Shown here: positions 46,752-47,232 of the stretch, piece by piece | Layout: each line of letters begins with the position of its first letter | Position numbering within the stretch: the stretch's first letter is position 1 | Assembly: GCA_002731275.1 (NCBI GenBank) | Contig: PCBK01000036.1 | Location: forward strand, 1 to 60,033 | DNA length: 60,033 nucleotides | Direction: 5' to 3' | Source: Deltaproteobacteria bacterium | GTDB lineage: Bacteria > Myxococcota_C > UBA6777 | Program-made: the position numbers and the translations under genes | The notes under the pieces: model-generated | Told to the model about the DNA's origin: nothing | The model's database searches: none | The model's input: only the letters and a program-made list of their open reading frames with translations

Positions 46752-46871
46752 AGGAGAGTAGCTCAGTCGGATAGAGCAATGGACCGAATTTGTGTGCTTT
46801 GTAGAAAGCACCTCAGCAACCCCCAATTCTTTTTAATCTATAGGTCGTGGGTTCGAGTCCCACTGCCCCGA
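46752..46871 (+). tRNA. Interrupted tRNA-like gene 4 (Lys-UUU-like), split by the integrated element
   Basis: AGGAGAG, TA, D-arm GCTC-AGTCGGATA-GAGC, stem ATGGA/TCTAT, loop TTTTTAA (46830-46836, anticodon TTT), variable AGGTC, T-arm GTGGG-TTCGAGT-CCCAC (46847-46863). The 46-nt insert has GTGCTTT-GTAG-AAAGCAC (46794-46811) and CTCAGCA. The acceptor 3' strand present here, TGCCCCG, does not pair with AGGAGAG. The matching CTCTCCT is at 53591-53597, beyond the element. Joined there, the cloverleaf is perfect and resembles gene 2. So this copy was broken by integration at the T-arm. Confidence 0.8.
46846..46863 (+). repeat. attL: 18-bp core in the T-arm of tRNA-like gene 4
   Basis: CGTGGGTTCGAGTCCCAC is repeated exactly at 53573-53590 in the same orientation. 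It spans the T-stem and T-loop, a common target of tyrosine recombinases. Confidence 0.85.
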
Positions 46872-47232
46872 CTTTTTCGACGATTTCAAGGGTTCTACAC
46901 ATTCACTACAAAAGCAAGCAGAAGCCCGACACATCCGAGCAGATAGCTCGCTCCAAGGAAGCCCTTGTGATCAATTTACGGCGTATGCAGGACATTCTCC
47001 TGACGGTTCTTTGCAAAATTCATGTGCAACATACGTGCAACCGAACTTTGGTGAATTCCCAAGCGACCTCTTAGAGATAGTGACTGTGTGGAAGCATTTG
47101 CCACAACCATTGAGGATGGCTATTCTCACGATGGTACGCTCCATCGCAAGCAAAGACGGTCCAAGGACAGAGCAACAAAGCCGAGGTTGGATGTTTGCAC
47201 AACAAGAGCCATCACCCAAGCAACAAAACTGA
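46864..47232 (+). pseudogene. Displaced 3' end of the integrase gene (122-codon tail)
   Basis: Reading from the attL core in the frame the integrase uses across attR, the frame stays open for 122 codons and stops at TGA 47230-47232. In the excised circle the recombinase would therefore run through the attachment site and end here, making a protein of about 554 residues. The tail contains LLEIVTVWKHLPQPLRMAIL, a W-x-x-LP-x-x-x-(R/K)-x-x-IL type ending seen on many integrases. In the integrated state it has no start of its own. The HNH-like gene starts eight bases later. Confidence 0.8.

Follow-up and report, generated by a model that had tools for sequence, protein, structure and literature searches.

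A tRNA-targeting integrative element that probably carries its attachment site inside its own integrase gene and would exchange the tail of the enzyme on integration

The 60,033-nucleotide stretch of DNA analysed here (the window) is part of contig C41 in a genome of 10.75 Mb, whose phylum is sampled by five genomes. It most probably (at roughly 78%) contains a ~6.7-kb integrative element that targets a tRNA gene and carries attP inside its tyrosine-integrase gene. The enzyme would have 554 residues in the circle and 459 in the integrated state, with a C-terminal helical hairpin acting as a modulator. The initial annotation had proposed that the integrase gene spans its own attachment site and that integration moves the native tail to the opposite end of the element. 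This proposal held: most homologues run through an att-like segment, one protein carries both parts in a single chain, and tails and integrases in other genomes are joined in frame by exact repeats.

The integrase is encoded on the forward strand at 52295-53674 (459 aa) and fits the description of a tyrosine recombinase of the phage integrase type. PF00589 matches residues 184-360 with 57.4 bits against a cut-off of 27.1, and R214, H321, R324, H347 and Y357 are invariant across six relatives. Tyrosine recombinases use an Arg, a His-x-x-Arg, a His and a Tyr for catalysis, and all are found here. The N-terminal and catalytic domains and the start of a linker occupy 52295-53572 (+). They are followed by an 18-bp sequence, CGTGGGTTCGAGTCCCAC, at 53573-53590 (+), which the integrase frame crosses, reading it as RGFESH, and which forms the core of attR. 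An identical copy at 46846-46863 (+), within the T-arm of a tRNA gene, forms the core of attL. These two copies are the only ones on the forward strand of the window and of the contig end beyond it, and none was found on the reverse strand of the window. Past attR, the frame continues into host DNA for 27 codons and a stop (53591-53674, +), as had been noted initially. From attL, the same frame stays open from 46864 for 122 codons until a TGA at 47230-47232. This stretch (46864-47232, +), which is homologous to tails in other genomes, would be the displaced native C-terminal tail, with a conserved motif at ~47026-47157 (+). Fusing the two halves at the 18-bp repeat gives exactly 554 residues, in agreement with the ~554 predicted for the circle.

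The ATG of the next gene (47241-48479, +, 412 aa) stands 8 nt past the tail stop, a spacing that was likewise confirmed. The gene had been called HNH-like. By eye, its CxxC, SHxIP and CxxC motifs keep that look, but a Pfam search with the product gave no match and PHROGs returned only families of unknown function. A small gene upstream of the integrase (51815-52261, +) possibly encodes an excisionase or HTH protein: its product matches a PHROG excisionase weakly (E 0.059) and is 49% identical over 106 aa to the product of an open reading frame upstream of the integrase on contig G189:C140. No phage genes were recognised in the element, and a PADLOC search for defence cargo gave one weak partial hit only.

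The attachment site can be read from the target tRNA gene, the host part of which lies at attL (46752-46863, +). The gene is tRNA-Lys-UUU-like and has an insert of ~46 nt in the anticodon loop; Rfam gives a tRNA match at 46752-46871 (33.7 bits against a cut-off of 29), and ARAGORN, with introns allowed, calls tRNA-Lys(ttt). The 5' acceptor strand AGGAGAG (46752-46758) pairs at four of seven positions with the 3' strand now present, TGCCCCG (46864-46870), and at all seven with CTCTCCT at 53591-53597, the first seven bases of the host-derived tail. Since the acceptor pairs fully across the element and only partially at attL, the element must have inserted into the tRNA gene and carried the 3' strand off to its opposite end. 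A plain disruption of the tRNA gene without any element was rejected, as the acceptor strands match across 6.7 kb. The arrangement is that of a tRNA-targeting island, with a tRNA at one end, the displaced 3' fragment at the other and an integrase in between. The restoration of the tRNA by the element, another mark of such islands, is absent, with four of seven acceptor pairs at attL, and the target tRNA gene was therefore probably broken by the integration. The 18-bp core matches the T-arm only, which suggests that the element was derived from another tRNA than its present target. Judged from the tRNA-Pro sequences of the window genome, its own strand TGCCCCG looks proline-like.

The insert in the target tRNA is an observation in its own right. 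Eleven tRNA genes in three genomes of the window's phylum, the target among them, carry an intron-like insert of ~45 nt, made up of a conserved hairpin and then CCNCAGCA. Four of these lie in the window (46150-46265, 46309-46420, 46576-46694 and 46752-46873), one is L137 (G000:C81:25789-25906), and L212, L213, L217, L218, L221 and L222 belong to genomes G002 and G004. All 77 pair cells of the 7-bp hairpin are standard, and three of the seven pairs are changed on both sides. By eye, the insert seemingly sits in the anticodon loop, between positions 32 and 33, in four of the five genes of the window genome, and that of 46309-46420 precedes an intact anticodon arm. The same genome has more than 100 other tRNA matches, and those printed by ARAGORN lack the insert. 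A group I intron was rejected because the inserts are far too short and Rfam gives tRNA only, with no intron match; no similar bacterial intron was found in the literature listings searched. In the window genome (G000), contigs C65, C121, C200, C36 and others show tRNA genes packed into dense arrays next to canonical ones; on C121, at least nine genes with a CAT anticodon and odd D-arms follow one another. These arrays are perhaps phage- or plasmid-borne.

The initial annotation had suggested a search for integrases in which both parts are contiguous, and one was found. The integrase of G189:C140 is a single chain of 495 aa, in which the catalytic domain is followed by a tRNA-end-like GTTGLET and then by a tail ending in LDFIIKVWPDLSNEVRETIMAMVTKKEERK, which aligns with LLEIVTVWKHLPQPLRMAILTMVRS of the window tail. 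The att-like 23-mer of this integrase has a single copy in that genome and corresponds, with one mismatch, to the 3' end of tRNA-Asp in the related genome G044. The idea that this contig is a sequenced circle was unsupported, as it has no terminal overlap. The tail stop overlaps the next start (ATGA), compared with a spacing of 8 nt in the window, and MKLKDITPKSFSC is the beginning of the product encoded next. Four orphan tails (L089, L092, L094 and L095) are followed by a frame that overlaps in the same way and starts similarly, and in three of the four this next frame is soon broken. On the same contig (L096), RadC-like and UvrD-helicase-like open reading frames were seen by eye in reverse orientation from ~2568, behind the integrase; they are possible cargo of that element.

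An AlphaFold2 model of this contiguous homologue was built with 12 sequences (mean pLDDT 76.9, pTM 0.56). After the catalytic domain, residues 368-461 have a pLDDT below 50 nearly throughout, and two helices follow at 463-472 and 478-494 with values of ~77. The att codons, near residue 393, fall in the predicted disordered part. As modelled, they belong to a disordered linker in front of a C-terminal helical hairpin.

Similar tails occur elsewhere, mostly as orphans. A profile made from the window and G189 tails matched 11 of the 18 genomes that have the integrase (E 0.05 or better). A profile of 14 tails (A6, threshold E 1e-4 or better) was then used to search 386 genomes and a 68-genome phylum, and 21 distinct tail places were found (15 rows and seven rows, with G143 in both). 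A single place lies in a frame of more than 400 codons, the other 20 being in frames of 34 to 218, and only one forms a single chain with an integrase. In the set of 386 genomes, tails are present in five of the six with the integrase (G290 is without one) and in none of the 380 without it, and the tails of all five positive genomes had gone into the profile. In the 68-genome phylum, the counts are six of 13 with the integrase and one of 55 without, and six of these seven hits had gone into the profile. The tail of G448, which is outside the profile, starts with an in-frame tRNA-end-like MVGGTGLE. Some orphan tails have broken frames. The W-x-x-LP...IL motif noted at the start was borne out, its L, W and I being invariant in the 14 aligned tails, which are spread over several phylum-level groups. 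For the eight pairs with at least 40% identity, dN/dS is 0.42-0.82, which indicates mild purifying selection at most. Comparison of the tail with plasmids, Pfam and PDB sequences gave nothing meaningful.

Exact repeats also connect tails to integrases of the same genome. The longest measures 27 bp in G321:C244, 23 bp in both G390 and G437, and 18 bp in the window, and all four are in frame. In G321:C244, a single contig holds both element ends, which are separated by 4.9 kb and located at a tRNA-Ala; in G390 and G437, they lie on separate contigs. The other 12 same-genome comparisons share 12 bp or less in the att regions, and a wider same-genome comparison found up to 21 bp, which in G189 and G428 lie in sequence coding for the tail or the linker and not at att. 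Across genomes, four of 239 pairs reach 23 bp, all with the G437 tail, and the next longest is 17 bp. These four matches arise because the integrases concerned target the same tmRNA end, and the pairing of the G437 tail with its integrase is thus not unique.

Strong relatives of the integrase, sought with a profile of two sequences, were found in six of 386 diverse genomes, the window's own genome included; the family was also found in all three genomes of the G189/G044 phylum and in 13 of the 68 genomes of the G143 phylum. This amounts to 21 distinct loci, counting the window. L047 and L059 stop at a contig end and were left out, which leaves 19 loci with a visible 3' end. The view that homologues end before the att core failed, as the integrase frame crosses an att-like segment at 17 of the 19 and ends before it at two (L060 and L062). 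At eleven of them, the reading continues in frame into a tRNA or tmRNA gene that ARAGORN calls (L036, L046, L048, L049, L050, L051, L057, L063, L064, L065 and L067). Six others, judged by eye, cross an att-like segment without a called gene (the window, L045, L058, L061, L066 and L068); shared cores back the call for L061 and L068, and the frames of L066 and L068 are broken upstream. The targets of the family include tRNA-Arg, Ala, Glu, Val, Gln and Leu, and tmRNA. The same tmRNA 3' end is read in two frames, as WWRRRESNP in L057, L061, L064, L068 and L050 and as MVEAAGIEP in L065; members of the family have therefore come to differ in the phase in which a single att core is translated.

A scan of genome contigs for close relatives found one, the Deltaproteobacteria MAG RBG_13_61_14. 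Viral contigs gave no relatives when scanned with A1 and ten distant ones with A2. No such tail was seen at the C-termini of nine of these ten; L188 was omitted, its match figures being the same as those of L187. A tblastn search of plasmids and phages with the integrase returned partial, low-identity hits only.

An attP inside int with a swap of the C-terminus is already known from Myxococcus phage Mx8. In Mx8, attP is placed within int, downstream of the catalytic domain, and integration gives int a new 3' end (PMC6070905, PMC4383910). A similar principle is stated for Mx9, and the swapped Mx8 integrase is reported there to be still active, modified and changed in specificity (PMC6070905). 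The Islander algorithm already allows for integrases that extend across attP (PMC4383910). In the phage genome, Mx8 Int (533 aa form) has a tRNA-end-like STGLEP at residue 415 with 113 residues behind it and is a second contiguous case of this design; a small gene, uoi, lies upstream of int. As in Mx8, attP of the window lies in the part of int that codes for residues past the catalytic domain, and, judged by sequence, integration trades 122 native codons for 27 host-encoded ones. The integrases are only distantly related, as the family profile scores 18.4 bits against Mx8 Int and 621.8 against the window protein; the tails differ, and the tail profile has no match in Mx8 Int. The window element thus seems to work like Mx8, yet its integrase stands outside the Mx8 family. 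Mx8 is a phage, whereas the window holds a small element, and enzyme activity has been studied in Mx8 and Mx9 only.

Archaeal suicidal integrases (SSV-type and pT26-2-type) also have att inside the integrase gene, and integration parts the gene in two; the N-terminal part is split off, the catalytic int(C) is left and the gene is inactivated (PMC8371274). In the window, by contrast, the N-terminal part is not separated from the catalytic domain: the latter, with Tyr357, is encoded ahead of att in a continuous frame, and only the C-terminal tail is exchanged. Ordinary tRNA-site genomic islands resemble the element in having a tyrosine integrase and the 3' part of a tRNA gene as target, but their int usually ends before att and the tRNA is restored, whereas here int spans att and the acceptor strand is swapped for a non-pairing one. 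In mycobacteriophage integration-dependent immunity, attP lies inside a coding sequence, and the protein is changed because integration cuts a segment off its C-terminus; there, the altered gene encodes the repressor rather than the integrase. As far as the literature was searched, no earlier report of this integrase family was found. Within that scope, the family itself is new, as are its conserved tail hairpin, the distribution across several phylum-level groups and the range of sites targeted.

The proposed mechanism starts from an attP in a flexible linker between the catalytic domain and the small C-terminal helical hairpin. The circle would encode the 554-aa integrase with the next element gene directly behind. 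As the sequence shows, integration at the tRNA-Lys-like gene leaves an enzyme of 459 aa that keeps its catalytic domain whole and ends in 27 host residues; the native tail is left at the opposite end, cut off from its start. The full-length enzyme may work in the circle and the trimmed one in the integrated state, with the hairpin modulating synapsis, directionality or stability. Excision, probably with the small upstream protein, would rebuild the full gene. The next gene may be co-transcribed with int in the circle and lie behind the tRNA transcript when integrated. An influence of the tail swap on locking, directionality or cargo coupling is plausible, since the swap in Mx8 is reported to modify rather than inactivate the integrase. 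A further reading, held tentatively and at somewhat less than even odds, is that the family, which occurs in several little-studied phyla, uses its own att site as a genetic switch. The circle-only hairpin would set the direction or block re-excision until trimmed, and an att in a free linker would allow retargeting to many tRNA and tmRNA genes with the enzyme unharmed. Points against the main reading are that only one of 21 tails is contiguous, on a contig whose ends do not overlap as those of a circle would, that two of 19 integrases end early, that one of 55 genomes lacking the integrase has a tail, that some orphan tails have broken frames, that the dN/dS of the tails is only moderately below 1, that the 18-bp core is short and that the acceptor is unrestored.

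The most serious rival is that the swap is incidental: attP would sit in a linker that the enzyme can do without, since int and attP together form a compact module that is readily passed on and retargeted, and both forms would work alike with no regulatory tail. The position of the att codons in a predicted disordered region, the untouched catalytic domain, the wide variation of targets and the dN/dS of the tails all agree with this. It is nevertheless considered unlikely, as the invariant L, W and I recur across several phylum-level groups, the tails are tied to genomes with this integrase, and the Mx8 swap reportedly alters the behaviour of the enzyme. A small protein made from the tail by itself once the element has integrated (e.g., from TTG 47011, 73 aa), with a regulatory role in trans, is more doubtful still. 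An in-frame TTG ORF (47011-47232) is present and tails stay open in several integrated elements, but no convincing start or promoter was seen, with promoter-like matches at the shuffle mean, and the tail loci show no isolated small gene with its own conserved start.

Chance would mean that the open frame merely happens to lie next to a tRNA repeat and has nothing to do with the integrase; this would fit a repeat of only 18 bp that is confined to the T-arm. Dinucleotide shuffling of these bases produced a 122-codon open frame 42 times in 5000, and in shuffles of 46000-54000 such a frame stood at 23 of 2000 random places. Openness is thus evidence at the ~1% level when taken alone, and the weight comes from the homologous tails and the in-frame att repeats in other genomes. 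The chain of G189:C140, these repeats and the acceptor complementarity, complete only across the element, already contradict chance, which retains next to no probability.

The preferred reading of an attP inside the integrase gene carries a warning for annotation: integrated copies are mis-ended, and the native tail of such an integrase has to be sought kilobases away, in an orphan frame without annotation. A comparison of the two forms in which one enzyme naturally occurs would cleanly test how C-terminal parts set the direction of recombination. With this family, the design of Mx8 and Mx9 would become a recurrent one with a defined, removable module.
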